IMG/VR virus record: IMGVR_UViG_3300020385_000005
Coordinates: 64,001 to 128,000 of that record
Source of the DNA: a virus
Length of the DNA stretch: 64,000 nt
Reading direction: 5' to 3' (one strand)
The translations under genes were made by a program, and so were the position numbers. How positions within the stretch are numbered: position 1 is the stretch's first letter; each line of letters begins with the position of its first letter. The notes beneath the pieces were generated by a model. The model was not told the DNA's origin, did not search any database, and saw only the letters and a program-made list of their open reading frames with translations. This document shows, piece by piece, positions 2-17,575 of the stretch.

Positions 2-3000
2 TTGAGAAAAGGTGACAGCAATTTAGGTGATAAGCAAATAGACGATTATGTAAATGCTATAGATAAAATGTCTAAACGTGCAGTTGTTATTGGAGCGACG
101 CATGCTTCAGTAGGTACCCCACACACAGACCTTGGAAGGAATATTGCAAAAGTAGAGCCTCGTTTTGCAAACTTTTTATACAGCTCATTAAGATCATTTT
201 GGGAAATGGATGCAAAAGAAGCTACTGGATATGTTTCCTCAATGATAAATCGAATGGAAGGATTCGAATCAAGAGCTTCTGGATTCCTTGGAATGAAAAT
301 CACACAAGATTCTTTAGGAAAATTAGGAACTAAAGAAATACAAGCGCAAATATCTGGGTTGGAAGATGTTGGTAAACTAACGAAAGAAGAAGCTGATGAG
401 TTACTTTCGTTTGGGCAGGGAAGAGAGCGTGAAGTTGTAGAAAAATTGTCTGAAAGAAAAAGCGGTAATATTCTAAACTTAGAAGAAATGGGCTTTAGCA
501 AAAAAGCAATGGAGGCTTTAACAGAATTTACTGGAGGTAAAAAAGAAATCTTCCTTCCAGGAGAAGATACTTTTAAAGGTTTTATTGGGCACGAAATCAG
601 ATCTGCTGATGAAATAATTAAAGTTGAAGCAGAGTATGGAAGATCAGTGACAGACTTACTTTCATCGCTTTCGTCATTGAAAGATGCTGAAAGTGATACT
701 GATCAAATCAGTAGTGCAATAAAGGGTTTTAAAAAAGTAAGATCCACAATGAGTAAAACTAGTGCAACAGCAATTAGGCATGCTTTAAGTGGAAGAGTAC
801 TAGGATCTGGAAGCTACATGGGTGGTGGCTTCAGTACAGGAAAAGGAGCAGGCCATATTGGAGCAACCGTATTTAATGATGATGCAATGATTCAAGCAAA
901 GATGGCTGCCGGCTTGTCAGATGTAATGAATAAAGAAATGGGTTATGTAGCTTTTATGGACCAGCAAGCGTTCTTAGATGGGATGACAAAATATGAGGCT
1001 GCGGTAGAAAAACACTTGATGGCAACTCGAAAAAGCACTTCTGTAAAAGCAGAAGTGAGGAAGGTGATGCAAGAGACGTTGGAAGCATTTTTTACTGGCA
1101 TGCATCGCCCTGATAAAGAAGGAGTATCTGCAGCGATACAAAGAAACCCAGTAATCGGTTTCTCTCACATTTGGGCAGGTATGGGGATTTATCAATATGA
1201 TTTTACTGAAGACTTAAAGCCATTAGCAATGCTTAGAAGTGTAGATCAAGGGACTGAGTGGACAGGTCAATATAAAGATCACTTAAAAGAAATGCGGCGT
1301 GCATTAAACCAACCTGAACTAGATGCCTTATTAAAAAAGGCAACTATAGAGGATGTAAAAGACGAAAAAGGGCGAACTCAATTATTTGAAAAAGCTGAGA
1401 AATTAAAAGAAGCTCAAGAAAAAAAATACCAAGAGTACGTTAAGCAAAAAGAACTGCCAAGTGTACAAAAAGCTCAAGCTGAGAAAAATACATTAATAAA
1501 TGAAAAAAACAAAATAAAAAGCGATCCTGCTTATGCGAGTCCAGAAGAACGCAGACTTAAACTTTTCAAAGGCGAATATAATAGCAGTAGAGATGCAAGA
1601 GGGAGATTAGGTGTACTGGGTGATGAGATTGGGGAAGCACATAAGCATCGATTACATTACGAAACAGTTTTAAAGGAGGAAGAAAAAAGCCTGCAGTTAG
1701 CTATAGAAGAAGCTGATAGGAAAAATATGGGAAATGCCGCTGAAGATAGCAAAACTCCTACTTCAGCACAAAACAAATTAAAAAGACAAAAAAAGAAGTT
1801 AAAGAAAGTTCAAAAGAAATTAGAAGGTGTAAGATCCCAAATAAGCTATGATGTGAGCAACGAAAAGTGGTATGGAAGACCTGTACTTGGAGGAGAAGAT
1901 GTCTCTAATAAAAATGTAGAGAGAGCAATTTCAACTATATTTTCAGAGAGCTTAGAGGATGTAGGATACGCACTTAGAACGGGCAGATCTTTTGAAGATG
2001 TGCAACTTAGACATTTCCAAGGTAACGCTCAGCAAGGCAAGGAATTCCTCAATCAAATGGGAAGCTTCTTTGGGTTTGAGAAACAAGGAGGAAGCATCTT
2101 TACTGATGAATTGCTAGACTCTAATAATACTGTAACTTTCAAACCGCAGGGTAGTGATGATAGTATAACTCAACATGCATTAGAAACTAAAAAATACAAG
2201 ACGATGCCAGGAATGGCATATAACGAGGGTTCAGGAAGCCAACAGTTTGGAAATTACATGCATGAGGCTATGTACGCTCGTGATCCCTACAGTACGTTTG
2301 AAGGAGGGAAAAGACAATTTGTAATTCCCACAGATGTAAATAGGGCTAATAAAGAGAGTCTTATGGAATTATATGGAGTTGGTTCAAAAAAAGCTGACGC
2401 TATCATAAGAGAAAGAAGCCAAAGTAACTTCAAAAGTCTTGAAGATTTTAAAGCTAGGGTTCCTGGTGTGGGGGATCAGATCCTAACAAAAAATGAGCTA
2501 GCCGTCGCGCCAATACGTAGCAAAGTTGATGTATTCGAAACATTAGTAGGAGACAGGAGTAAAGAAGATGCTATGTGGGTAGAAGGGATTAAACGAGAAG
2601 AATATTATGCTAATAAAGCCAGAATGAAAGAAATCAATCAGGAGCTCAATACCTTAGACAACAGTGAAGCTGGAAAACATTTAAAGAAAAAAAATGACCT
2701 TTTTGAGGAGATGAAAGCTATAGAAACTGAGCAAGCTAAAATAAAAGAAGGCACTGACTTAATTAAAGAAGCGCAAGACGAATTATATCAGGGTGACAAG
2801 AGCCTATCTTTAGCAGACGTTGATAAAAAAATAATAGAGGATCAAAATGTATTTAAAACTCTCGGAGTAGGTGGAGGTGGAGTTGATCCTAACTTTACTG
2901 GTAAAAAAATACAGCCCAAAGATCCTGGGGTGCATCGTGACTTAGCCACACTAGATGCTGCATTAGGAGGAGAAGTGAAAACTGGTGGACATTTAGCTCA

Positions 3001-4543
3001 GTTACGTGAAATGAAAGAAACCGGAAGCTTAAATGATGAACAGGTAAAAGCCTATGATAATATCTATCGGCGAATGGTTGGCATGCACAAAGAATTTGGA
3101 GAGCATGGTGGCGGTACAATAAGATTTCCACAAATTGAAATGAGCATGAAGCTGGTTAATGAAGCTACAGGGGCAACAAGTAATTTTTCAGGAAGAATGG
3201 ATTTTGTACGTTTTGGTATAGGTGACTTCGATGCAGACACATTTCAAGTATTCTTTGATACTGATAAAGCACTTAGAAATAAAATAAAAGCTAAAGAAGT
3301 CGATCCAACTAAACTGTATACTTACGGAGCTCAGTTCTTAACTAACATGCATCTTCTAGGAGAAGGTGTAGGAAAGTTAGGGGAGAGAATGGGAGCATCT
3401 AAAATGACAGTCGCTCAAAGCCTTGTAGACGAATATCAGAAAGAGCAAATTGTTAAAGGTATCGGTGGATTAGATGTTCAAGTTAAAGCAGGCATGCTAG
3501 GTTTGGCTCAAGCTGCTGCTGATGATACTAGCGGTGATTTTGCAAATCAGTTTAAAAGAATGCAGGCTGGAGCCAGTTTGATCTCTGTAGCGCAGGAAGT
3601 TCTAGGTATCAAAGGTAAAAAGCTTCCTATTGCTGCAAATATATCTCGAGAGTATATGGGTGCATTAAAAACCTCTTATGAAACAGGAAGCGGAGATGCG
3701 CTCAAAGCATTTTTCAAAGAAAAGGTGCTTAAAGGTACATTGCTAGAAACAGGTAGTGGTAACATCAAAGTAGAAAAAGGAAGTGTAAAATTTCACAATT
3801 TAGACAAAGGTGATGCAGCAACAAAATTTACACAAGCATTAACAGACATGAACATGAGTGTTGATGAAATGTTTGAAACTTTTGATATCATGGCTAAAAA
3901 TGTAAAAAAGCATGGATTGAACAGATTCACATCTAATGCTGCTCTAGGTAAGATGCTAGAAGGTTCAAGTAAAATGAATTCACAACAATTGTTTGGTTTG
4001 CTAAATAGAGGTTACTCTATGGAAGGCGGAACGATTACAGGCAACATGAAAGAGCTTGAAGATATATTCGGAAAAATAGACGCTGTAAAAGAAACATTTG
4101 CTAGTTCTGTTAGTAGAACTAAAGGACTAGCAGGTATAGTAGCGGGAGGACTATTAGGGTCTTATGCTATTGGAGCTAATTCAGATATTGGTAGTTTAGA
4201 GCCAGGTGGAAAGTTTTCTGATTCACGCTCTAAAGAAGCATTGAAAGCTGGTCAGAGTTTAAGCAATCGTGCGCTGCAGCAAAGCTTCAGTAGAGAACAT
4301 GGTAATATAAATCCAGGACGAATAAGCCCAATGGAGAATTTTTATGAAAGACCTATTAATAGTGGTGTAGCTACTGTATCATTGAATCGATCAGTCAAAA
4401 TGTACGGAGAAGCCCCAAGTCTATCTGCTGCCCAAAGTATGGGTAAACACTTCGTTTCATCTGGAGGGCAGGCATCATTAACAATCAATGATAACAGAAG
4501 ACCTATCGGACCTGCTTATATGAACAAGCTTATGAGAGATTAA
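2..4543 (+). CDS. Large virion-type protein, 5'-truncated, with HhH and DFDAD motifs
   Basis: The reading frame is open to the window edge, so the true start lies upstream; 1513 residues are visible. I cannot name the family. Residues about 470-620 are charged and coiled-coil-like. Residues about 776-833 form a ComEA-type helix-hairpin-helix pair (GVGSKKADAII, then GVGDQIL), a fold that usually binds DNA. Residues 1041-1079 contain RFP followed 32 residues later by DFDAD (D1075, D1077, D1079) and a hydrophobic strand, which resembles the metal-binding DxDGD signature of two-barrel RNA polymerases. A glycine-rich hydrophobic stretch follows near residue 1380. Its place just before the hub gene would also suit a tape-measure or tail-tip protein. 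The stop is three bases before the next ATG, so the two are co-transcribed. A virion role is inferred from context; the RNA polymerase idea is tentative. Confidence 0.6.
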   Translation: MRKGDSNLGDKQIDDYVNAIDKMSKRAVVIGATHASVGTPHTDLGRNIAKVEPRFANFLYSSLRSFWEMDAKEATGYVSSMINRMEGFESRASGFLGMKITQDSLGKLGTKEIQAQISGLEDVGKLTKEEADELLSFGQGREREVVEKLSERKSGNILNLEEMGFSKKAMEALTEFTGGKKEIFLPGEDTFKGFIGHEIRSADEIIKVEAEYGRSVTDLLSSLSSLKDAESDTDQISSAIKGFKKVRSTMSKTSATAIRHALSGRVLGSGSYMGGGFSTGKGAGHIGATVFNDDAMIQAKMAAGLSDVMNKEMGYVAFMDQQAFLDGMTKYEAAVEKHLMATRKSTSVKAEVRKVMQETLEAFFTGMHRPDKEGVSAAIQRNPVIGFSHIWAGMGIYQYDFTEDLKPLAMLRSVDQGTEWTGQYKDHLKEMRRALNQPELDALLKKATIEDVKDEKGRTQLFEKAEKLKEAQEKKYQEYVKQKELPSVQKAQAEKNTLINEKNKIKSDPAYASPEERRLKLFKGEYNSSRDARGRLGVLGDEIGEAHKHRLHYETVLKEEEKSLQLAIEEADRKNMGNAAEDSKTPTSAQNKLKRQKKKLKKVQKKLEGVRSQISYDVSNEKWYGRPVLGGEDVSNKNVERAISTIFSESLEDVGYALRTGRSFEDVQLRHFQGNAQQGKEFLNQMGSFFGFEKQGGSIFTDELLDSNNTVTFKPQGSDDSITQHALETKKYKTMPGMAYNEGSGSQQFGNYMHEAMYARDPYSTFEGGKRQFVIPTDVNRANKESLMELYGVGSKKADAIIRERSQSNFKSLEDFKARVPGVGDQILTKNELAVAPIRSKVDVFETLVGDRSKEDAMWVEGIKREEYYANKARMKEINQELNTLDNSEAGKHLKKKNDLFEEMKAIETEQAKIKEGTDLIKEAQDELYQGDKSLSLADVDKKIIEDQNVFKTLGVGGGGVDPNFTGKKIQPKDPGVHRDLATLDAALGGEVKTGGHLAQLREMKETGSLNDEQVKAYDNIYRRMVGMHKEFGEHGGGTIRFPQIEMSMKLVNEATGATSNFSGRMDFVRFGIGDFDADTFQVFFDTDKALRNKIKAKEVDPTKLYTYGAQFLTNMHLLGEGVGKLGERMGASKMTVAQSLVDEYQKEQIVKGIGGLDVQVKAGMLGLAQAAADDTSGDFANQFKRMQAGASLISVAQEVLGIKGKKLPIAANISREYMGALKTSYETGSGDALKAFFKEKVLKGTLLETGSGNIKVEKGSVKFHNLDKGDAATKFTQALTDMNMSVDEMFETFDIMAKNVKKHGLNRFTSNAALGKMLEGSSKMNSQQLFGLLNRGYSMEGGTITGNMKELEDIFGKIDAVKETFASSVSRTKGLAGIVAGGLLGSYAIGANSDIGSLEPGGKFSDSRSKEALKAGQSLSNRALQQSFSREHGNINPGRISPMENFYERPINSGVATVSLNRSVKMYGEAPSLSAAQSMGKHFVSSGGQASLTINDNRRPIGPAYMNKLMRD

Positions 4544-4546
4544 AAT

Positions 4547-7500
4547 ATGCGCCAATTGAATAATATACCTAATTTGTTTAATGATGAAGCTCCGAATTTT
4601 ACATTAAATGACATTGAACTGCATGTGCCTCCAACTGCGATTTCAGTACATAAAGAAGGTCTTGAATATTCTTGGAAAACATTGCGGTCTAAAGTTTCAA
4701 CTAAAGTAGCTTCAGGAAATGGAACTTATCATGTTCAGGTAAGCATTACTTTCGCTCCTGATTCTTTAGTTTTGCTACATAGATTAATTGCTCAAGTGAG
4801 AAATAATCCATTTATAATGGTGAAAAATAATTTCATAACTGCGAGTTTATCTGAAACGCATGCAATAAAAACTCAACCTAATTATTTCACGTTGTTTGGA
4901 ATGAATATAGCTAATCATCCTAGTTCACCAGGCGCATTTTTAGTTGAACTAGACTTAAGGTATTTTAATTACAAACCTTTTGGAAGGTCGCTACTTTTCA
5001 AGAACGATTACGTAACCAAGGTAGAAACAAGCAGGGATATTCGAGAGTATGTGCATTCTGTCTTCCCTAATTATGGGTCAAATAAATCAGAGTTAAAGCC
5101 AATATTAAGAAGAACTCAAAATATCCCATGGGTTAAATCCAGTGTACGGAGGATACAAATTAAAAATGGCTTCTGGTTCTTAAAAGACGTAAGCAATCCT
5201 AGCAATAGAATATCTGGTGGGTTAATAAATGAAGCTACAAAATCCAATGCATATAAACGATATGCTAATTTCTTGCAGCTAAAGTATCTTTATGAAAATT
5301 TTGGAATTTCAATCATTAAAAAAGATGCAATAAGAGAATCTGAAGACATCCATAATGTTATTAAAATTAGTGACAAGTTGTACAAGCTATTTCAAGGGAT
5401 TGAAATAAACTCAGACACTCCCATCAGAGTAGTAGGCCTTCATGAAATGAAAGATGGTGAAGGTAATATAGATGAAGAGTTGGTTAATTTTAGAAGAGAT
5501 CTAATACATGCAATGCTAGTTAGTGGCATGAATACTAAGATAGTAGTGAAAGAGTTTAAATCTTTAAACCTGGGTGGAAACTTCATGTTCAGGTATAGGA
5601 AGACTCTTCGAAGAGGTATAGGAAAAGGCAAGAACGAGCAAGAGCAAGATAAGAAAATCCAAGAGAATAGAAAAAAGATTTTTGAAATGTTCTCTTCATA
5701 TGAGGCTCACGAAGCTCATAAAGCAAAAACTACAAGCGAGTTGCAAAGGGAAGCTGGTGGGGAAGTAGTATTAGAGTTGGATTCAAACCGAAACTTAAAC
5801 TTTGCGGTTCCATTGTTTCCGAATAAGAATTTTTATTCTCAATATGCAGCTGTAGATCAAAAGTATTCTGCACCAGGTAAGAAAGTTACCATAAATAACG
5901 GCAATGCTGAAAGATACATCATTAGAAACGTTGCAGCTTGGGATCCGTTAGATAGCACTAATTTAGCTTTTCCAGTTTTAACAATTGCTAAAGGGTATAT
6001 TGAACATGTTGGAAGTGATACTGTCAAAATTACAACAGCAATCTCTCGTGGAGAAACTGTAATTTACACTGGTTTGCAAATCAATGACGATATAAAAGAT
6101 TGGATTAGGCAGCAGGGTGAAGTTGAATTCCCCGCAGGGACAATGATTGGCTTCTTTACACAAAGTAATAAATTCGATTTGCAGATTAGCTCACAACTAA
6201 TGAATGAGATTGGAATTAGCTTAACAGGCAAGGCGATTGATGTAGATTATGATGTAACTAAATCGAAGAAATATAAAGAAAAAGTGGGAACGCATAAGCT
6301 TGACCCTGATGGAAAAAGCTTTCTAACGAAAAAAGATGCTCCATTTATTAATAACATCAAGCGCTTAATTGATGTAGAGGGATTTTCGCAATACATCTAT
6401 AGATCTGGATTGGAAAATGTATTTCAAAAAGCTTTAATACTAAGCTTTGATTCTAACTTCCAAGAACGAGACATAGAGAATATAACTGGGAAATCAGTGG
6501 GAGATTTAAACGCCGATTCAATACCTAAGTTTGAGCAAGAAATAACTAATGCTTCTTGTTCACTAAGAAATATAATTAGTTCAATCCCAATTCTTGGGTA
6601 TGCTTATCCAACGCATCAATTTTTAGGTAGCGTAGAACCTGTATATCAATTCAACTTCATTGGTCATACTGGGACAGATGGACTACCACATAAAATCAAA
6701 GAGCTTGAAAACATTCGAGCACACACAGCATATATGGCTAAGAACTTTCCTCAGATACCTGATGCCGCAAATATTATAGTTGAATGCCTACTTACTAAGC
6801 TGGTTGGTTCTTTTAAATATTCCAATAGTGACGAAAAAGTAATAGAGCATAAAGATGGAACTGCAGTATTAAGAGAGGTTAAACCTAATTTCCTAATTTC
6901 CTCAACAGATACTTTTACAATAGAAGGCTCTCCAGGAGCCGTTGGGTTGAACTTCAGATTCAGTGAAAGCAAATCATATGATGAAGAAGAGATGGGCCTG
7001 ATAAAAACATCAGAGGTTGATGAGAATTATCTAGGCAGGTACGCTTCTGTAATACAGAACCAGGGAGTTCCAATTGGGAATTACAGTGGAATGCAAGGAG
7101 TTAAGCGTAGTTATTCTACCGCAAAGTATGTTCCAAAATTCTGGAATACGATCCACTTTAAATCAGCATCTTATTATGCCTTATCAAAGCGTCATATAAG
7201 AAAAACTTACCAAGACCATCTAATAGGTGACATTGATACGAATGCATTTGATTTCTGTAAAGATTACTTGGACCCCATTCAAGGGTTTTTAGATATATAT
7301 ACAAGTAAATATAGAAAAATTAAAGGTGGCAAAATTGCACTATTCTCAACCCTGGATAAACAGGGTGGTGGAAGATCAACAAAGAGCAACCACTTTACAG
7401 GTGCAGGTGTAGATTTTCGTATTGAGCACATGCACGTCGTAGAAGCTGCGGCAATTTTAGAGCTGTTAGAAGAACATCGTTTCTTTCATGATAGTATTGG

Positions 7501-10500
7501 AATAAGAAAAGGTGTCAAAAATCGTAAACGTATATTAGGAATAGGCGTATACGGATCTGTTGCATACAGTAGTACGGAAAACTTAACAAAAGATATTCTT
7601 ATAGACAGTGCGCTTCATGACAATTGGTTCGACCCAGATAAAAACGAAGCATTTGTAATGAGGAAGCAGGATAAGCATTGGGTAAGATCAAATGGTTTTA
7701 TTCATCTAGATGCAAATATGAAAGTCACTGATGAAGGTATAAGAACAGGAGTATACCCTGTAAATACAACACGTAGACGTTGGGGTGGGAAAGACGGTCT
7801 AGATAAGTTTGATAACTATAGAAATTTTTGGAGCGATAAAATAGAGTCTGTAAAAAAGAAAATCTTACCTTTTTTCCGAAACGCATTAGACGAATATTTA
7901 AGAAAGAAAGAGGCAGATGATCAGGCCGCTGGAGAGGCTAGTACTGATGGACTTATTGTTAATGGAGTTGGGCATCAGATCAATACTCGAGGCTTATTTA
8001 AGTTTGAAAATTTTAAATCTAATAGAGATATTGATATTGAAAATGATACGAGTAGACTCCCAAACCAAGTAGGGCCAGAAAGGGAGTTAGTTAATATAAA
8101 ATATATTGTATTGCATCATGGTGGGCACAATACTGAGATGTTAAAACAAGTGTGGGCGGGAACTACAACTAGTAGTAACATTGGAGTAGCATTAGAAAAA
8201 GATGGAACAATTAGAATAAGCCAAATGGTAGATTTAGCTAACCGAACGCACCATGCTCAGGGCCATAATGGTAATTCAATAGGAATTGATTTTGCCTTAT
8301 CTCCAGTAGTAACAAACAGCAAGCGATATGGATTAAGAGTTATAGATAATCCTGTGGGTGCTGGCCCTAAAAAAATAGTAGAGCTACCCGATAGTATCAT
8401 AAACGCAATGGCGCAATTAATTGCAGAGATACACCGTATAATGGAATGGGGAACTCCTGTTGTAATTCCAAAAGAAGACCATGAGACAAGAGAATATACT
8501 ACACAACAAATTATAAATAATGGATGGACTGTAGTGAGTCATGGAAACGTTGCTGGCGCACACCAACCTGGAAGATGGGATCCACAATATGCTTTAGGTA
8601 GACTTGATACTGCATTAGGTAATTTAACGTTACTGGAAGTAGAGGCAGCAGATAGCGAGCAAAACGAAGAAGAAGAAGGAGAAGTTGCAAACCAGACTGC
8701 GGGAACCGTGCCTGATTCAAGAGAAACTGCTTCAGAAGAAAATTATAAATTTGCTTCTAGTAAACCAGAAGATTTAATTAAGTTTTTGGAAGATAATCAA
8801 GGTGCAATGGGTCTTAGTGAAATAGATATAAGAAAAGCGCTAACTTATGAAGTCCGTATGGGTGCTAAATATCGACGTTCGGTAACAAAGTACAATTTTG
8901 AAATAGACAGCAATGCAGGAAAGTATGAGCTTAAATTTTTACCTCCCAGAGGGACTGCTGCCCTAACCGATGGGCAAAAGAAGATAATCGAGGCAATACA
9001 AAAGTATTATGCCAGAGAACTATCAGTACAAACTAAAACTAGTAGTGAACATGATACAAAAGTAACAACTTCTGTAAAAGGAAATAAAAGTGCTGGATAT
9101 GGATTTACAGAAGTAAAGACCAGTCAAGGAGACTTTAAATCCAAATCGATACACTTCATTGAATCAGAATTGCAAGCTAAAACGGCACAAAGAGATGCTT
9201 TAGGTAAGGCAAGAAAGACTAATAATAAATTATTAAAATCTTTCACAGAGTTAGCATCTGTAATGTTAACTGAACCGTATCTGTATACTGATACCAAAGA
9301 AGAATTTATTGCAGAGATGAAGTTCATTCAAAAAGAACTATACAACTTTGCAGTATTACCTGTGTACTACAATAGTATAGAGAAGTTATTCACTGGACAT
9401 TCTACTATTGATGAAGCTCAAAAAGAAATCACCAGAAGTAGGCATTGGGGAACAGCAACTGGAAGTACAATTGGAGCAGGCGTAGGTGGCAAAGCATTGT
9501 ATAATCGTCATGTGCAAAAGAAGCTGGGGACAGCAGTAGCGGCTAAGGGATTAGCAAAATTAGGAGGAAGACTGGTGCCTTATGTAGGGTGGGGGTTGCT
9601 TCTACTTGACTTGATTTATTTAACTGAAGCGCTTACTACAGGGTTAGATTCGGACTCCAAAGAGCAGTTGAGGCGCTATAAATTAGCAAAAAAAGAACAT
9701 AATGAGCGTCTAAATGAAAAGGGTAGCTTCCTAGAATACATTAAATATTATGCTGACAATAAGGAAGCTATCTTAGGGAAGAAAACCAGCATCAGTAAGC
9801 AGGGAATAAAAAAAATAGGAAACTTCCTAGATGAAATAGGTGACTCAGATGGTGTTAGTCCTGCAATTAATAATTATGTTAAGCCCATTTATACAGAGCT
9901 AAGTATATTCGAAACATTCAACAAGCTTGCATTAAATTTGGAGACTGATAGTCGAGCACGTGATTTAATTAAAACTTCAATACGGAACAATTCAAAACTA
10001 GTAGATGATGAAGGAAAGATAGATAAAAATTTATCTAACTTCGCTTTAGCTGATGAACTAACCATGAAGGGGATAAAGCATTACTTGAATTTTATATTCA
10101 AGATACCGGCGGTTAATGTTAACTGGAGTAGTTTTGATGAAGAAAATGCTGGAGATATTTTCAAAACAAGGGTTGAGAATTATGGTCATGCGGGCGGTAT
10201 GAAGGGTAGTGATTTTGTAGATTATCGAATTTCTTTTAGTAGCAATGAGAATGATACAGTTTACTGGCCGCACACACAATTGCCTCGAACGACAATAAGA
10301 GAATGGGCCGATATTTTGACATTCAAAGATGTAAAAAAGTTTCCATATCTATTGAATTATCAAGTAAGCGATATTAGCCGCACAGAAAAAATAAGTGGCC
10401 TAGATAAATACTTTGAAGAAGTAGTGACAAAAGAAGGATTGAAAAAACAAAATAGAGTGAAATTGGCTTATTTAAAAAGTCTCTTGAAGGTGCTCTTGGA

Positions 10501-13500
10501 AGAGAATATGCATTTAAATCCAAGCATTGTAGAGAAGTCAAAAGATCCAGTTTTGTTACGAGTTCTAGATGGCAGTACCGTTTTTGATTTATTAGAAGCT
10601 AATGCATACCCTGATATTGATTTACCTCAAGATCCAGAAAACCCTTATAACAATTCTAATTTGTCTCCATGCTTTTATTATAACGATCCAAACGATTTTC
10701 AAGAAGATCAATTGAAAGCTATTCGAAATAATAAAAACATGACCCATGCAGCAAAAAAGATCTTAGCAAGTTCAGTTCAATTTCAAAAGGGGCTGAGAGC
10801 TGGAATATTTACAGGCGCTGAAAGCAAATTAGAAGTTGATGGGGAGCAGGGGAGCATAATTAAAGAGCTAGTAGACAGTACTGAAATTATGCGGTCCACT
10901 TCAGATTTCTTATTAAGCGGTCCAGAAGACAGCCAAAGAGCAGCTTACGTAGCACCTACGAAAATAGGGTTATTTGATGGTGATACTAAAAGCGCTAATG
11001 ATGATTGGGAAAAAGCTCCTATCGAAGTCAGTACATCTACAGAGTCACTTAAAAGTGAAAATGTGATAAAGCATTTATATACAAGCATTGATAATACTAT
11101 TACTGATGCCAACGAAAGAATTGATACTGTTTATAATGATAGTTCACGAGAATTTCAAAGAATCAATAGTGCTTTTGGTAGCAGCTTGGGATTTAAACTA
11201 AAATCAAGTTTAATTGAGGAAATCAAAAAGTCTGGTGATGATGAAACAAAGCGTAGCTTTGGTACAGAAATGCAGCAAGATTATAGTGAAAATGCTCTTT
11301 TAGGATTATCGGAAGATAGCAGTAAGAACATTTATAGATTAAAAACTATTAAAAATGCATTCCCTACTTTTAGATTATATCTAATAGAAGAAGACGAAGT
11401 TTATAGCGATAGATTAACAGCTTTTGATGACTTCTTTTATTACAACTCTGTAATTAGTTTTAATGTGCACAACTCAAGAGAGTTAGCAGCTTCTACTGCC
11501 ACTATACAATTACAAAATATTTCAGGAATCCTAGATGGAACGAAAAAGAAAGTTTTGCGTGATGTTGACTTAGATCCAAATGTCAAAGAAGAAAACATGA
11601 GGAAAGAAGGAAATTTCATTGATAGCATTGTTTTGCGTCCTGGTGTAACAGTACAGCTTCGAGCAGGTTACGAAAGTAACACTAATAATTTAGACATACT
11701 TATTTCTGGAAAAATAACAGACATTAATTATGCTCAAAATAATACTATTTGCAACATAACAGTACAAAGCTTTGGGAATGAATTAACTGCGCTGAGAAAA
11801 GGAAACGGAAACAAAGATAATAACCAAGCAAGTGTTTTTTATAGTACACATCAACTACTAGGTAGCATGATGATGAGTGATGAATTAAAACATTTTGGAA
11901 GATCTAAAGTTGGAGCTGTATTTCAAACAGGAGAATATAAAGACTATTCTTTAGATTTAGATCTATATAAAAAAGAATCTAGTTTTAACTTTAGTTTGAG
12001 TCGAAATTTCTTTGATTGGGTGAGGGATAATACATTTGGGATTGGTATAGGTGTAGGTTTGCTTACTCTAGGTGGACCAGCGCTTAGAATGGGAATGAAT
12101 TTAAAGTACATAAAAAGTATTAGAAGCTGGTATACAACTGCTGCAAGAGCACCAGGGGCATCACGAGCTTTTACATGGAGTTATGCAGCAGGTAAATTTA
12201 CACATGCAGTTGTATCAAAACCTGTAAGTTGGCTGAATCCATTTGGGATAAGTGGTACAGCTAAAAAATTAATCATAAAGCGGGCTCAATTTTTGCAGAG
12301 CAACTTATATTCCATGGCGGCAAGAACTCCAACTACAGTGACCCGCACCAAAGTAATATCTACCCTTGATGATGCGCTTGAATTTTTATTTCAAGCGAAT
12401 CAAACGGGTGCGATCCAGAGCTTACCAGCACTAAGTGGCGGTATGGCAAGCTTACTCAGTGCAACACCATTTAGATCAAGTGTGGCAGCACATGGATATT
12501 TGCAAGGGTCAGTTGTTCATGTATTTAAAAAGATGGCAAATCTTCTACCATTTGGATCTGTAAAGCCAGGAAGCGAACTTGGAGAAGCTTTTTTGAAACA
12601 AATGATACTGAAGCAGAAAGGGTTTACTGCTTTAGGTTTAAATGGGTTAGCACCTTCTGCTTTGAGCAAAGGTTGGTTAGCAACTAGAATGGGTGCTGAT
12701 GTAGCGATCAGAAGCTATGCTTCAGTACGCTTACCCTTAATGATAGGTGGAGGTGGATTAGCTATTGCAGGACTTCTAGCAGGGATAGATGTTGCTGTAG
12801 ATTCACTGAAGTATCTTTACTACTCAATAGTAGGTAGCTTTTCTGAAGACAAGAACAAATTGAAGAAAAAGAAATATTTATCTCCACAGGATGACAACAT
12901 ATTCGCTCCGCATCCAGCTCAGTATATGAAGAATATCCCTAAGAAGAATCCCAGTTATGGGACGTCGTTTCTTAATGCTAGTTCAGAACATTTAGAAGAT
13001 ATTTGGATGACTAGTAAAGATATTATTAATAAGGCAAGTTGGGGTGTAATAAATATTACCAATTCAGATAAATTGAAAAAACTGAAGCTGAATCCATTCA
13101 AATTGATGGATAAGCGATTAGATGTAAAAACATTTGAAAACCCATTCGTAGTAAGCGGGCAAACAATTTGGGAGATATTACATGAATGTACCTTAAGGCA
13201 TCCGGGGTATATTTATGGAGTGCGACCTTATGGAAATAGTCTGGAATATAGAGTTTTCTTTGGAGTGCCTAGCCAAAGATACTGGGGTAAGAAAATATCT
13301 AATAATGAAATTAGAAAATTAAATAAAATCCACAGTGAGCTAAGATTGCTTAATCTCGATAAAAAGAAAAGTCTAACTATAGACACTATAAAACAAATCT
13401 TTCCGAAAGAATATGCATTATATAAAGATTCGTATAATGATACTGAAACAGAGAGCTTAAAAAAACATTTTACAATAAGAGCGTTTGATTATTATTTAAA

Positions 13501-15022
13501 GAAAACAAAAGAACGTTTTATGCCTTTCAGGCAATTTCACTTAGTTTCGTCAAAGCGAAACTTGATGTCTAATAATATAATTATTTCCTCTCATAATATG
13601 ATAAATGCAGTAAGCGTAAACTTTATCAACAATATGAAGGACCAAAAAGATAAAGCAAAAAAGAAAGGAAGTAAAGACGGATTGGCCGAGACAGATGGAT
13701 CTTGGTCTCCACATCTATCCAAGTATGGAGATAGAATCGAAACTTTAAGATTTAGAGCCAATAGAAACATCGGGATGGGGTCGTTAAAAGAGAAGACGGT
13801 TTCTTCTCGTAATATTATTGGTCCAAGTAATGCATTGCGATATGGGTTGGGAGAGCTTCTTTATGGCACAAGGAAAATGTATGAAGGGTCTTTAACAATA
13901 TTGGGTGATACAAAAATCAATCCATGGGATGTAATAATCTTACATGATGACATAACGAATATGTATGGCCCTGTCGAAGTTTGCTCTGTAACACATATGC
14001 TTTCTTTTGAGACTGGTTTTATCACTGATGTTGAAGTAAATGCACTAGTAACTTCAAATGAAGAATTGACTCATCCAATGATAAGTCAAAGCTTAGTTTA
14101 TGAAACTAGAGCAAAGATATTTGATGAGTACAACAATTTGAATGCGCTGGGCTCTGATAGCCAGCAGAGAGAAAACACAGTAAGAGGGATCGTAGAAGAA
14201 GAAGTTACGAAACTAATTAACGATACTTTAAAAGAAGGTGCAGGAGGAATCAGAAGAAATATAGGCGTTGGATTCTCAACAGACGCAGGTGGCGTTTCGC
14301 CTGAAAAACGGGAAAAGTTGATTAAACATATTACTCAAAGAACTTTAGATTCCTATAAACGCAGTGGCAATGATTTTAGAGCAGGATTTATAAATGATAT
14401 AGTTCCTGCAGACGCAACTATTCCGGCAGAGTTAACTGAGATATTAAGCGATGCTGGAGCAGGTAGCGCGTTGTTCTCGGGAACGTATCTGGTAGGTGAA
14501 GCTATTCGAAGGCTTTCAACGGGTGGAGGGTTATCACTTTATGGCGGTGGCCCATGGAAAATGGGAATATTTTTTGCAAGCTCCCTACTTCTTTCACAGT
14601 CTGGAGACACTATAAACAGAGTATTAAGCAATTCATATAATAGTGGTAGCCTTGGAAAGAATATCTTTAGACAACATATTCTCTCAAGAATGGAAAATGG
14701 GAATCTAATTCAACTCTACCCTTTAGTTAAAGATGGATTGCCATTAGTAACAGGTGGATTTGAAGAAGTAGATGAAACTGAAAAATGGAATAATATGTTA
14801 GGATATATTTATCATGGTTCTTCTAGTGCTATTAAAGGTTACCTGAAACGACAGCAAGAATTAAAGTCGTATGGAGATCGAGTTTTAGAAGCATATGATG
14901 CAAGTGAATTGGATTCACTTAAATCAACAGTTGTGATAAATTTCAGTAAAGCAATATCACCGTTTGTAGGTAAGAAACCAGCTAGCCGACTTTTAGGCTA
15001 CGTATTCATGGATGAAGACTAA
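4547..15022 (+). CDS. Giant tail hub / baseplate protein with M15 peptidase and amidase domains
   Basis: A 3491-residue protein that appears to join the tail hub to two cell-wall hydrolases. Residues about 1-160 resemble phage tail/baseplate proteins. Residues about 915-1060 look like a peptidase M15 (VanY/endolysin) domain: SNHFTGAGVD gives H949 and D956, and FIHLD gives H1053 and D1055. Residues about 1175-1355 look like an amidase_2 domain (N-acetylmuramoyl-L-alanine amidase): IVLHHGG (H1190/H1191), HHAQGHNG (1235-1242), SHGNVAGAH and WDP (H1332, D1345). Residues about 2340-2430 (VQLRAGY, then SGKITDI, then VQSFGNEL) and 3085-3170 resemble gpD/gp27-like hub domains. Hydrophobic stretches lie near 1670-1700, 2494-2515, 2728-2765 and 3309-3350. 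It probably sits at the tail tip and cuts peptidoglycan during DNA entry. Hydrolase calls are firm from motifs; the hub call rests on similarity and on gp25 and J genes nearby. Confidence 0.8.
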   Translation: MRQLNNIPNLFNDEAPNFTLNDIELHVPPTAISVHKEGLEYSWKTLRSKVSTKVASGNGTYHVQVSITFAPDSLVLLHRLIAQVRNNPFIMVKNNFITASLSETHAIKTQPNYFTLFGMNIANHPSSPGAFLVELDLRYFNYKPFGRSLLFKNDYVTKVETSRDIREYVHSVFPNYGSNKSELKPILRRTQNIPWVKSSVRRIQIKNGFWFLKDVSNPSNRISGGLINEATKSNAYKRYANFLQLKYLYENFGISIIKKDAIRESEDIHNVIKISDKLYKLFQGIEINSDTPIRVVGLHEMKDGEGNIDEELVNFRRDLIHAMLVSGMNTKIVVKEFKSLNLGGNFMFRYRKTLRRGIGKGKNEQEQDKKIQENRKKIFEMFSSYEAHEAHKAKTTSELQREAGGEVVLELDSNRNLNFAVPLFPNKNFYSQYAAVDQKYSAPGKKVTINNGNAERYIIRNVAAWDPLDSTNLAFPVLTIAKGYIEHVGSDTVKITTAISRGETVIYTGLQINDDIKDWIRQQGEVEFPAGTMIGFFTQSNKFDLQISSQLMNEIGISLTGKAIDVDYDVTKSKKYKEKVGTHKLDPDGKSFLTKKDAPFINNIKRLIDVEGFSQYIYRSGLENVFQKALILSFDSNFQERDIENITGKSVGDLNADSIPKFEQEITNASCSLRNIISSIPILGYAYPTHQFLGSVEPVYQFNFIGHTGTDGLPHKIKELENIRAHTAYMAKNFPQIPDAANIIVECLLTKLVGSFKYSNSDEKVIEHKDGTAVLREVKPNFLISSTDTFTIEGSPGAVGLNFRFSESKSYDEEEMGLIKTSEVDENYLGRYASVIQNQGVPIGNYSGMQGVKRSYSTAKYVPKFWNTIHFKSASYYALSKRHIRKTYQDHLIGDIDTNAFDFCKDYLDPIQGFLDIYTSKYRKIKGGKIALFSTLDKQGGGRSTKSNHFTGAGVDFRIEHMHVVEAAAILELLEEHRFFHDSIGIRKGVKNRKRILGIGVYGSVAYSSTENLTKDILIDSALHDNWFDPDKNEAFVMRKQDKHWVRSNGFIHLDANMKVTDEGIRTGVYPVNTTRRRWGGKDGLDKFDNYRNFWSDKIESVKKKILPFFRNALDEYLRKKEADDQAAGEASTDGLIVNGVGHQINTRGLFKFENFKSNRDIDIENDTSRLPNQVGPERELVNIKYIVLHHGGHNTEMLKQVWAGTTTSSNIGVALEKDGTIRISQMVDLANRTHHAQGHNGNSIGIDFALSPVVTNSKRYGLRVIDNPVGAGPKKIVELPDSIINAMAQLIAEIHRIMEWGTPVVIPKEDHETREYTTQQIINNGWTVVSHGNVAGAHQPGRWDPQYALGRLDTALGNLTLLEVEAADSEQNEEEEGEVANQTAGTVPDSRETASEENYKFASSKPEDLIKFLEDNQGAMGLSEIDIRKALTYEVRMGAKYRRSVTKYNFEIDSNAGKYELKFLPPRGTAALTDGQKKIIEAIQKYYARELSVQTKTSSEHDTKVTTSVKGNKSAGYGFTEVKTSQGDFKSKSIHFIESELQAKTAQRDALGKARKTNNKLLKSFTELASVMLTEPYLYTDTKEEFIAEMKFIQKELYNFAVLPVYYNSIEKLFTGHSTIDEAQKEITRSRHWGTATGSTIGAGVGGKALYNRHVQKKLGTAVAAKGLAKLGGRLVPYVGWGLLLLDLIYLTEALTTGLDSDSKEQLRRYKLAKKEHNERLNEKGSFLEYIKYYADNKEAILGKKTSISKQGIKKIGNFLDEIGDSDGVSPAINNYVKPIYTELSIFETFNKLALNLETDSRARDLIKTSIRNNSKLVDDEGKIDKNLSNFALADELTMKGIKHYLNFIFKIPAVNVNWSSFDEENAGDIFKTRVENYGHAGGMKGSDFVDYRISFSSNENDTVYWPHTQLPRTTIREWADILTFKDVKKFPYLLNYQVSDISRTEKISGLDKYFEEVVTKEGLKKQNRVKLAYLKSLLKVLLEENMHLNPSIVEKSKDPVLLRVLDGSTVFDLLEANAYPDIDLPQDPENPYNNSNLSPCFYYNDPNDFQEDQLKAIRNNKNMTHAAKKILASSVQFQKGLRAGIFTGAESKLEVDGEQGSIIKELVDSTEIMRSTSDFLLSGPEDSQRAAYVAPTKIGLFDGDTKSANDDWEKAPIEVSTSTESLKSENVIKHLYTSIDNTITDANERIDTVYNDSSREFQRINSAFGSSLGFKLKSSLIEEIKKSGDDETKRSFGTEMQQDYSENALLGLSEDSSKNIYRLKTIKNAFPTFRLYLIEEDEVYSDRLTAFDDFFYYNSVISFNVHNSRELAASTATIQLQNISGILDGTKKKVLRDVDLDPNVKEENMRKEGNFIDSIVLRPGVTVQLRAGYESNTNNLDILISGKITDINYAQNNTICNITVQSFGNELTALRKGNGNKDNNQASVFYSTHQLLGSMMMSDELKHFGRSKVGAVFQTGEYKDYSLDLDLYKKESSFNFSLSRNFFDWVRDNTFGIGIGVGLLTLGGPALRMGMNLKYIKSIRSWYTTAARAPGASRAFTWSYAAGKFTHAVVSKPVSWLNPFGISGTAKKLIIKRAQFLQSNLYSMAARTPTTVTRTKVISTLDDALEFLFQANQTGAIQSLPALSGGMASLLSATPFRSSVAAHGYLQGSVVHVFKKMANLLPFGSVKPGSELGEAFLKQMILKQKGFTALGLNGLAPSALSKGWLATRMGADVAIRSYASVRLPLMIGGGGLAIAGLLAGIDVAVDSLKYLYYSIVGSFSEDKNKLKKKKYLSPQDDNIFAPHPAQYMKNIPKKNPSYGTSFLNASSEHLEDIWMTSKDIINKASWGVINITNSDKLKKLKLNPFKLMDKRLDVKTFENPFVVSGQTIWEILHECTLRHPGYIYGVRPYGNSLEYRVFFGVPSQRYWGKKISNNEIRKLNKIHSELRLLNLDKKKSLTIDTIKQIFPKEYALYKDSYNDTETESLKKHFTIRAFDYYLKKTKERFMPFRQFHLVSSKRNLMSNNIIISSHNMINAVSVNFINNMKDQKDKAKKKGSKDGLAETDGSWSPHLSKYGDRIETLRFRANRNIGMGSLKEKTVSSRNIIGPSNALRYGLGELLYGTRKMYEGSLTILGDTKINPWDVIILHDDITNMYGPVEVCSVTHMLSFETGFITDVEVNALVTSNEELTHPMISQSLVYETRAKIFDEYNNLNALGSDSQQRENTVRGIVEEEVTKLINDTLKEGAGGIRRNIGVGFSTDAGGVSPEKREKLIKHITQRTLDSYKRSGNDFRAGFINDIVPADATIPAELTEILSDAGAGSALFSGTYLVGEAIRRLSTGGGLSLYGGGPWKMGIFFASSLLLSQSGDTINRVLSNSYNSGSLGKNIFRQHILSRMENGNLIQLYPLVKDGLPLVTGGFEEVDETEKWNNMLGYIYHGSSSAIKGYLKRQQELKSYGDRVLEAYDASELDSLKSTVVINFSKAISPFVGKKPASRLLGYVFMDED

Positions 15023-15540
15023 TGTCTAGACGAACCACATTCTCAGCCGAAAGGCAAAAGAACGATTACGAATCTCTAAATAATATGAACACAGGGATTG
15101 TAATAAAATGTACAATCTTAGATATATGCGGAGCACATAATCCTGTTACCCCATACATAGATGTTGAACTAGATGAAGAGGGAATCCCTATGGAGGGGTT
15201 CTTTGGAAGCGGGATTCATTTTATAGTTTTCGATCACATCAATAAAGAAATGACCAATGTTATATGGAAGAAATCAAACGATGAATTGAGGACTTGTTAT
15301 GGAACAGATTCCAATATTGTTGGACGAGAAATATCGCTTCATTGCTTAGCTAACAATAAGCAATCAATTGAAAACGCTATTATAGAGTGGGAAAGAGAAG
15401 ATGACATCCTTTTTGAAAGAGAGACCTGCTATATATCCTTGTCAGGAATATCTGGTGCAACCGTTAATGATTGGGAAGCGCAAATGAAAGCTTTTGAACA
15501 AGCAGGTATTGGCAAAGGAAGAAGGTGGAATAGACCATGA
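15022..15540 (+). CDS. Hypothetical baseplate-region protein
   Basis: 172 residues; not recognised. Its ATG shares one base with the stop of the giant hub gene (TAATG), and its own stop overlaps the next ATG (ATGA), so it is translationally coupled on both sides. The protein is soluble-looking, with no signal peptide or membrane segment, beta-rich in the middle, and basic at the C-terminus (GKGRRWNRP). Lying between the hub and the gp25-like wedge gene, it is likely a small hub, spike or wedge component. That role is inferred from position only. Confidence 0.6.
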   Translation: MSRRTTFSAERQKNDYESLNNMNTGIVIKCTILDICGAHNPVTPYIDVELDEEGIPMEGFFGSGIHFIVFDHINKEMTNVIWKKSNDELRTCYGTDSNIVGREISLHCLANNKQSIENAIIEWEREDDILFERETCYISLSGISGATVNDWEAQMKAFEQAGIGKGRRWNRP

Positions 15541-15890: not shown

Positions 15891-16338
15891 TGAAAAATTT
15901 GATTTAATCTGGTCTGAAGATGGAGAGATCTTATTCGATGAAAGTATTAATGATTTTAAAAAGGGTTACGAAAGTGAATATGAACCACTTACACAAACCA
16001 TCTTGAAGCGAATACAATCTGCAGACGAGGATTGGGGGTTAGAGGGAAGCATTGCTTCGAACTTGAATTATCTTCGAGGGAGCAATTTAAATCCAGAGAT
16101 AGTAGAAGAAGCAAAAGGGATGATATTTTCATGCTTAACGAAGGATGGATTTGTTGACCCAGAGAAAATAAGAATAGAAGCTGAATCTTTTAGAAAAGAT
16201 ATTCTACTTTTTAACATATCAATATATGTTAATGAAAATGATTTTTATAACGTGTATAATTTAGGGGTGTCTTACGATATGCGAGACAATCGTTGCATAC
16301 CTCGATACATACAAGGAAAGAGTGCAAGAAATGGCTAG
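15883..16338 (+). CDS. Baseplate wedge protein, gp25-like
   Basis: 151 residues, the usual size for the T4 gp25/P2 gpW family of baseplate wedge proteins, which connect the hub to the outer baseplate and start sheath assembly. The family features visible are an N-terminal segment with a helix ending in DWGL, then SIASNLNYLRG, a helix leading to LTKDGFVDPEKIRI, and a beta strand LLFNISIYVN. The start has a strong ribosome binding site (taggagga, eight bases before the ATG). The stop lies inside the J-like gene that follows, the normal order of gp25 then J (gp6) in contractile-tailed phages. Confidence 0.82.
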   Translation: MRNEKFDLIWSEDGEILFDESINDFKKGYESEYEPLTQTILKRIQSADEDWGLEGSIASNLNYLRGSNLNPEIVEEAKGMIFSCLTKDGFVDPEKIRIEAESFRKDILLFNISIYVNENDFYNVYNLGVSYDMRDNRCIPRYIQGKSARNG

Positions 16339-17575
16339 ACCTGCTTTTACAATAGAAGAAAGAAGAATAAAAAATAATTTGTTTGGAAATATGCAAAATA
16401 GATTTGGCAATATTTCTGAGAATAGAGATTCTACTTTTAGCACTTTTTCTGAAACAATTGGAGATGAATTAAATCTTATCCGAAGAGAGATTGTCCAAGA
16501 GTTTGAAGGCATGCAAGTTTCTAACGCTACGGGAGAAATGTTAGATAACGTCGCAATGGAGCAATACGGGTTGCTTAGAAAGCCGGCAACATATGCAGAA
16601 ACCTATGTTGATGAAGCTAATGTATACTTTTATGTAGAGGAAGGAAATTTTGGAGACATCAACGGGGGTGGCGATATTACAATTCCAGCAGGAACGTTAA
16701 TATCAGCAAGACCTAGTAATATAGATTCAAATTTAGTTTATGAAGTATTATATGATTATATTTTAGACGCAGAAGCAAAAGTGCAATACTGCACAGTAAG
16801 AAGCGTTAATACAGGGTACAGCCAAAATATAGATAAAGATTCTCTAGTTTTTCATAATTTTGATGCATATACATTGGCAAATCAAAATAAACTTAAAGTA
16901 AAGAATAGATTCGCAATACTCAATGGCAGTGATGTTGAATCAGATATTATATTTAGATCAAGATTAAATAATTTTCTGACTGCAGCAATAAATCTAAACG
17001 AAGATTGGGTGACATTAAAAGCAATAATGATTCCCGGTGTTACTGAAATCAAAATGCTACCAAATTATTTTGGTATCGGAAGTTTAGGTTTGATTGTTTT
17101 TGGGAGTGGCAGAGAGAGTAGCGATCAATTAATTGAATTAGTTCAAAATCGAGTAACAGAGATTGCGAGTCCAGGGACTACAATAGATGTAGTAGGGGGT
17201 ATAACGACTTATATTGATTTTGACATTCGAGTATACGTTAAAAGAAATTTGTCTATTATTGATCGAGATGCAATAGTAAATGATGTGAAACGATTCGTCT
17301 ATCAAGTAATTGAATCTGCAGAAAGCAAGGGTGCTGTTCGCTTAACGGAGATAAGTAATTTTATTATCTCTAGAATTCCCGGTGACAATATTATATCTTT
17401 TGGGGGGAAAAAAAATGGAAGTATTTTTGAAAAAGTATTTCAAAGAAAAACAGATCGATTTAATTCTCTACCTGAGTATAAAGAAGAAATAGTAGGGAAT
17501 GAGATCATATTGAATGATGATGAAAGAGTGTCTTTTGGAATCGTAAATGTCATTCTAGAAGAAGGTGAACTATGA
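16331..17575 (+). CDS. Baseplate J-like protein
   Basis: 414 residues from the ATG at 16331. A GTG nine bases upstream (16322) would add MQE; I prefer the ATG, since MARPAFTI is a sensible start and aaggaaagag lies ahead. J/gp6-like proteins form the inner ring of the baseplate wedge. Features seen are an N-terminal helical part ending in NATGEMLDNVAMEQYGLLR, the typical ITIPAGTLISA segment around residue 117, a middle region with sequence like ARVKNRF...D(I)FRSRL, and the C-terminal part with TEIASPGTTIDVVGG followed by YIDFDIRVYVKR. The stop overlaps the next start (ATGA). Together with the gp25-like gene, this is the strongest evidence for a contractile-type baseplate. Confidence 0.85.
   Translation: MARPAFTIEERRIKNNLFGNMQNRFGNISENRDSTFSTFSETIGDELNLIRREIVQEFEGMQVSNATGEMLDNVAMEQYGLLRKPATYAETYVDEANVYFYVEEGNFGDINGGGDITIPAGTLISARPSNIDSNLVYEVLYDYILDAEAKVQYCTVRSVNTGYSQNIDKDSLVFHNFDAYTLANQNKLKVKNRFAILNGSDVESDIIFRSRLNNFLTAAINLNEDWVTLKAIMIPGVTEIKMLPNYFGIGSLGLIVFGSGRESSDQLIELVQNRVTEIASPGTTIDVVGGITTYIDFDIRVYVKRNLSIIDRDAIVNDVKRFVYQVIESAESKGAVRLTEISNFIISRIPGDNIISFGGKKNGSIFEKVFQRKTDRFNSLPEYKEEIVGNEIILNDDERVSFGIVNVILEEGEL

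Follow-up and report, generated by a model that had tools for sequence, protein, structure and literature searches.

A giant predicted baseplate hub with two candidate cell-wall hydrolase domains in a phage genome

Is the product of a giant gene among phage baseplate genes a tail hub that brings its own enzymes for cutting the host cell wall, and would these enzymes serve entry? This question was addressed in a window of 64,000 nucleotides (i.e., the whole stretch of DNA that was analysed), which corresponds to bases 64001-128000 within a 161,781-bp virus record. An earlier sequence-only reading had proposed that a single chain of 3491 residues combines hub-like domains with two different cell-wall hydrolases, that two such enzymes in one hub are unusual, and that hydrophobic segments of the chain may help to form a membrane channel. 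Our analysis points with good confidence to a central baseplate hub of the hyperplastic T4-gp27 type, equipped with exchangeable wall-cutting domains for entry, in a phage that is probably contractile-tailed.

Results

A single giant gene in a baseplate cluster

The gene occupies one open frame of 3491 codons on the forward strand (4547-15022), with an ATG start and zero internal stops. Relatives at other loci have single ORFs of similar length (3464 aa in L006 and L007, 3287 aa in L008, and 2929 aa in L011) and share 27-54% identity with the window's protein over the aligned stretches. Because of these relatives, we regard the frame as a real gene and rejected the possibility of an ORF artefact; the single chain proposed earlier was thus upheld. 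All eight residues that had been named in it (H949, D956, H1053, D1055, H1190/H1191, H1332, and D1345) were found at those positions. The features of the locus are listed in Table 1.

Table 1. Features of the giant hub gene and its neighbours (positions within the window; aa, residues of the encoded chain).
Feature	Position	Strand	Evidence
Upstream gene, 3' part (whole product 2420 aa); by its position a large structural protein	2..4543	+	HHH_3 E 1.1e-8
Giant baseplate hub gene, 3491 aa, single frame	4547..15022	+	ORF and one-ORF relatives L006/L007/L008
N-terminal domain, aa 13-161, common to distant hubs	4583..5029	+	blastp, E 1e-6 to 6e-4
Second shared domain before the enzymes, aa 616-816, possibly DUF6046-like (weak)	6392..6994	+	Similarity, weak profile matches
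Predicted M15-type peptidase domain, aa 870-1062; H949, D956, H1053, D1055	7154..7732	+	Motif, weak profiles, hhalign
Predicted Amidase_2 domain, aa 1165-1365; H1190, H1332, D1345; D1248 at AmpD E116 place	8039..8641	+	Profile, alignment
Hydrophobic stretch, aa 1672-1690, peak 1.37	9560..9616	+	Kyte-Doolittle
Predicted gp27-like hub fold, first half, aa 2267-2447	11345..11887	+	AlphaFold2 model, VIA-align to T4 gp27 and others
Helix-rich low-confidence insert within hub fold, aa 2448-2864	11888..13138	+	Model, alignment
Predicted gp27-like hub fold, second half, aa 2865-3171	13139..14059	+	Model, VIA-align
C-terminal helical tail, aa 3172-3491, weak hydrophobic peak in window	14060..15019	+	Model, hydropathy
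Baseplate wedge protein, gpJ/Baseplate_J	16322..17575	+	PF04865 E 2e-18; phrog_6 E 7.9e-25

The gene sits in a baseplate cluster, near the gpJ-like wedge protein. Searches with tblastn retrieved relatives in Bacillus phage KLEB27-3 (gp035, annotated as 'putative baseplate protein'), Acinetobacter phage ME3 (gp037, annotated as 'baseplate hub protein'), and Moorella phage MTATph1 (CDS0032). Local blastp against these three hubs gave collinear segments at residues 13-161 (the N-terminal domain of Table 1, for which the same three hubs were compared), 2199-2451, and 2867-3182. The chain also matched phrog_20474 (E 3.5e-46) and phrog_8809 (E 6.9e-13). Within the second shared domain, residues 667-816 are 39% identical to the product of the ORF that precedes the L009 hub, and weak DUF6046 matches were observed in L018, L019, and L033. 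As for the neighbouring genes, the one adjoining the hub gene (15022-15540) was unmatched in KLEB27-3, ME3, and MTATph1, and the upstream gene (2-4543), an apparent tail protein gene by its position, encodes a helix-hairpin-helix (HHH_3) motif.

Predicted hub fold and its insert

Residues 2190-3389 were modelled with AlphaFold2 from an alignment of 13 sequences. Its pLDDT averaged 49; most of the hub stretches scored between the 60s and the 80s, and the values were low across model positions 259-675. Structural comparison with VIA-align 2 matched T4 gp27 (1k28_D) with Z 18.0 over 309 aligned residues at 4.0 A, covering model positions 78-982, i.e., residues 2267-3171 of the chain. The Milano hub was the best structural match among those listed (Z 22.5, 307 aligned residues, 3.6 A), the hubs of VgrG, pyocin R2, and PVC scored Z 17-21, and nearly all of the 50 matches listed were hubs, spikes, or tail-tip proteins. 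Foldseek against the PDB gave 40 matches to the same model at E <= 0.001. In view of the VIA-align 2 matches to T4 gp27 and the Milano hub, the assignment of residues 2267-3171 to the gp27/gpD/VgrG hub fold is well supported as a predicted structure, one that they would share with the T4 gp27/VgrG hub family. T4 gp27 itself has about 390 aa and no enzyme of its own, the lysozyme of T4 being carried on gp5. A sequence search of solved structures with the hub and enzyme profiles returned nothing relevant; matches of the profiles to ribosomal protein L17/uL22, ABL1, and GFP (E 0.026-0.83) were dismissed as chance.

The low-confidence block of the model corresponds to an insert (2448-2864, about 410 residues long) that is present in the window's hub and in L007, L008, L011, and L009, and is missing from eight distant members of the alignment. 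It is structurally odd for a gp27 ring to be broken in this way, and such a long helical block inside it looks like a new feature. Natural splits of the giant hub were also observed. In L009 (L009:2-11254) the break separates the enzymes from the hub fold; since the two parts are here encoded by adjacent ORFs, they are separable modules. In L026 (L026:9464-13445) the split lies within the hub fold itself, yielding products of 663 and 649 aa.

The predicted M15-type and amidase domains

The first candidate enzyme carries the motif series of M15 peptidases, i.e., SNHFTGAGVDF (H949, D956), a GxGxY block, and FIHLD (H1053, D1055). The series SxHxxGxxxD ... GxGxY ... HxD is kept in the window's hub and in L007, L008, L011, and L009, where it lies in the ORF upstream of the hub; all four motif residues are present in these five close-clade members (5/5), which have 23-52% identity to the window's domain. 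E. coli MepK has the identical series. MepK also lacks an acid three residues ahead of the last motif His, and its absence from the window's domain is therefore normal for the subclass. Among 2000 shuffles of the protein, none contained the two-part motif (H-x6-D plus HxD) and 21 contained its first half, for a pattern that was defined post hoc. Profile evidence was weaker. Pfam gave no M15 match in the window's own sequence. When the five domain sequences were scanned singly, M15_3 was matched in two (best E 0.0063), M15_2 in one (0.01), M15_4 in one (0.067), and Hedgehog, which we take to be a fold relative of M15, in one (0.077), along with three unrelated weak matches. Record-wide scans added matches below the cut-off in L009 (M15_3 0.0015, M15_2 6.9e-4) and L008 (M15_3 0.0049). 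With hhalign, the M15 profile reached P 0.0029 against MepK at the H-x6-D motif versus 0.42 against the AmpD control, at a probability of just 10.7%. Judged from these motifs and profiles, the M15 identity of the domain is very likely.

The second candidate matched Amidase_2 (PF01510) at residues 1183-1299 with E 3.2e-5 and 24.7 bits, slightly below the 26-bit cut-off, in the whole-protein scan, and the identical stretch scored 29.9 bits, above the cut-off, in the genome search. The L007 domain also passed, with 26.5 bits. A hub-borne Amidase_2 was found in three of the 23 records searched (the window, L006, and L007), and alignment showed the segment to be missing from the hubs of L008, L010, and L011. 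H1190, H1332, and D1345, presumably the zinc ligands, are kept in both the window and L007 (2/2), at 47% identity. In the hhalign alignment, AmpD Glu116, which we take to be the catalytic Glu, is replaced by Asp (D1248) in both proteins, so that no Glu was found at this place. The amidase profile gave P 0.0078 against AmpD and 0.68 against MepK, with a probability of 5.0% for AmpD.

Other searches with the enzyme region were negative: tblastn against 50,697 phage records gave no match up to E 1, the single sequence found none in viral_contigs, both enzyme profiles retrieved from viral_contigs no records beyond those known from the hub, and no M15 or amidase entry of the PDB matched by sequence. 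An AlphaFold2 model of residues 601-1400, built from an alignment of four sequences, had a mean pLDDT of 33.6, too low to show a zinc site. The domain search and segment-wise structure prediction suggested by the sequence-only reading were each productive in part, the former matching Amidase_2 and leaving the window's M15 domain unmatched by Pfam, the latter giving the hub fold at residues 2267-3171 and only the low-scoring model of the enzyme region. Together, the predicted fold, motifs, and profiles back the proposal of a hub with two different putative hydrolases, and the two would probably cut different bonds of the wall.

Hydrolase content of related hubs

We compared 19 distinct hubs by Pfam and motif, one of which (L025) is partial and another (the split L026) was scanned with Pfam on its large upstream ORF only. 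Nine records (L006, L010, L014-L016, L022-L024, and L028) were left out, judging by their contig names, starts, and lengths, as near-copies or same records of L007, L011, L013, L019, and ME3, full identity being presumed for L010 and L014-L016. Two hydrolase classes were detected in five of the 19 hubs: amidase and M15 in the window and L007, M23 (E 8.8e-7) and M15 in the ORF immediately upstream of the split L009 hub, glucosaminidase (E 1.2e-13) and the M15 motif in L017, and NLPC and M23 in L020. Six of the 19 had one class (M15 in L008 and L011, M15/VanY in MTATph1, and M23 in ME3, L027, and L021); a weak SLT match in L021 (E 0.0029) was under the cut-off and would, if counted, move this hub to the two-class group. 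Neither Pfam nor motif revealed a hydrolase in the remaining eight (KLEB27-3, L012, L013, L018, L019, L025, L026, and L033). Within the close clade, the sequences indicate that the amidase is an optional module and the M15 domain a constant one. This shows how a tail hub is rebuilt by swapping wall-cutting domains: close relatives with 27-54% identity differ in whether the amidase is there, yet keep the M15 domain. The protein also offers divergent versions of both domains. With a cargo that varies, across the 19 hubs, between no hydrolase found and two classes, a link between cargo and the wall chemistry of the host becomes testable.

Some of the hubs in this comparison had further peculiarities. 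In L018 (about 12380) and L019 (about 11585), an M15-type ORF lies directly downstream of a hub with no fused hydrolase. The 2313-aa hub of L033 (L033:4634-11575), in which no hydrolase was found, derives from a contig of an Acholeplasmataceae MAG bin (binning as recorded), and it has the strongest hydrophobic stretch among all hubs (2.56). Acholeplasmataceae are wall-less hosts.

Hydrophobic stretches

Hydropathy was calculated with a 19-residue Kyte-Doolittle window, for which 1.6 is the usual threshold of transmembrane-like segments. The peaks in the chain were 1.88 at 2729, 1.37 at 1672, and 1.35 at 2497, and 0.99 in the C-terminal tail; those at 2497 and 2729 fall inside the insert. Hence, of the four hydrophobic segments named earlier, the one at 2729 is transmembrane-like, as the sole peak above 1.6, and the other three are below it. 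Across 15 hub chains (36,408 residues), 22 segments with a peak of at least 1.6 were counted, in 11 of the 15 chains, compared with eight segments in 58,627 residues of 77 other ORFs of at least 300 aa (8/77), taken from the window and the loci of these hubs; one of these eight belongs to an ORF that encodes the second half of L026's split hub. This amounts to a four- to fivefold enrichment in hubs. Peaks occur at matching places in L007, L008, and L011, and in L007-L011, L013, L017-L019, and KLEB27-3 a tail peak follows the conserved hub block at a distance of 155-173 residues. When tails were shuffled (500 times each), just three of 19 had at most 14 shuffles that reached the native peak; composition thus accounts for much of the tail peaks, since shuffled tails often equal them. 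At most, these findings are suggestive of membrane contact.

Discussion

Proposed role in entry and its alternatives

By analogy with T4, three copies of the hub would assemble into a ring beneath the tail tube, and each tail tip would therefore carry three copies of each enzyme. Contraction of the tail would bring the tip and its enzymes to the wall, where the M15 domain may cleave stem-peptide or cross-link bonds in the manner of MepK and the amidase may cleave the sugar-peptide bond, so that both cuts would open a local hole for the tube. Lysis at the end of infection would be handled by a separate amidase gene. Such an ORF, of about 305-310 aa, is present in the genomes of the window and L007 (302 aa in the former); the 302-aa ORF is likely the endolysin, and its stretch ahead of the amidase resembles, by eye, a peptidoglycan-binding domain. 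The baseplate neighbourhood and this separate gene favour an entry role for the predicted hydrolases of the hub.

It is conceivable, albeit unlikely, that both enzyme folds are present and catalytically weak or dead, acting as wall-binding or structural modules. The Asp at the place of AmpD Glu116 in the window and L007 would agree with a loss of activity, as would an M15 domain too divergent for Pfam and the eight of 19 hubs without any hydrolase by Pfam or motif. However, four M15 residues kept in all five close-clade members at 23-52% identity, and three amidase ligands kept in both carriers, speak for preserved function, and the M15 acid that is missing three positions ahead of the last motif His is likewise missing from MepK. 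We consider it very improbable that the hydrolases act instead in lysis at the end of the cycle, a role to which the name 'endolysin' of the phrog_20474 family and the like annotation of the MTATph1 hub would lend themselves. This label follows a domain, whereas the chain as a whole has a predicted hub fold and lies in a baseplate cluster, and a second, separate amidase ORF exists in the genomes of the window and L007. For the same reasons (i.e., hub fold, baseplate cluster, and separate amidase ORF), the PHROG name was rejected as a statement of function.

A hub that cuts the wall could also insert in the membrane, with helices of the insert (2448-2864) and the tail forming or lining an inner-membrane channel. 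If so, giant hubs would be complete entry machines, with wall-cutting domains and membrane-inserting helices of their own, and would take the channel role usually assigned to the tape measure protein. The enrichment of segments of at least 1.6 in hub chains over other large ORFs, and the recurrence of peaks in L007, L008, and L011 and of the tail peak at +155 to +173, are in line with such a channel, although only a single stretch of the window's hub exceeds 1.6, its tail peak of 0.99 is low, tail peaks are mostly matched by shuffling, the helices may merely pack as bundles, and the insert is missing from distant hubs. We judge the channel to be rather improbable. The channel claim of the sequence-only reading was not sustained: the stretches, though enriched in hubs, are weak in the window and lie partly within a clade-specific insert. 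The reading that we prefer remains a gp27-type baseplate hub with wall-cutting domains for entry.

Relation to known hubs

The hyperplastic T4-gp27 hub type was first described in Bacillus phage 0305phi8-36, whose gp147 was reported to combine a gp27-type hub with three wall-cutting domains, namely a transglycosylase, NLPC, and M23 (Hardies et al. 2007, PMC2147016). Like the window's protein, gp147 is a very long chain in which a gp27-type core is joined to several peptidoglycan-cutting domains that are exchangeable. The hub of L020, presumed to be that of 0305phi8-36, matches residues 2254-2413 and 2974-3170 of the chain. In gp147 the transglycosylase is N-terminal (PMC2147016) and the NLPC and M23 domains are C-terminal, with 1926 aa in L020 (presumed the same phage). 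The window's hub instead has predicted M15 and amidase domains, which both precede the hub part, and a hub fold that is interrupted by the insert of about 410 residues. A further precedent is HydH5 of Staphylococcus phage phiIPLA88, a component of the virion whose two wall-cutting domains were each shown to be active alone (PMC3150257). These domains are CHAP and LYZ2, and a gp27-type hub is not described in the part of the source consulted. Because of gp147 and HydH5, the multi-enzyme hub belongs to a known kind. The view that two enzymes in one hub are unusual was therefore overstated, given the three domains reported for gp147 in 2007 (PMC2147016) and the five two-class hubs among our 19. 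Literature searches brought up no account of the pairing of M15 and Amidase_2 or of the interrupted hub fold, which may nonetheless be in print; the M15 and amidase pair in one hub looks new.

Among the phages recovered by tblastn, gp037 of Acinetobacter phage vB_AbaM_ME3 (2329 aa, 'baseplate hub protein'/'peptidase') has N-terminal and hub segments collinear with those of the window's protein and differs in its SNase and M23 domains, M15 and amidase not being found in it. CDS0032 of Moorella phage MTATph1 (2225 aa, 'endolysin') shares the collinear hub segments and the M15 motif; it differs in the C-terminal position of its M15/VanY domain (2130-2183, a weak Pfam match), and no amidase was found in it. 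The phrog_20474 label 'endolysin', applied to whole giant hubs such as that of MTATph1 (L004:6946-13623), misleads about function. Finally, an SNase domain stands beside M23 in ME3 (L003:7648-14637), L021:4112-11419, and L027:892-8628, and a weak one was seen in L025; in 2007, the presence of a nuclease in such a hub had already been termed not obvious (PMC2147016).
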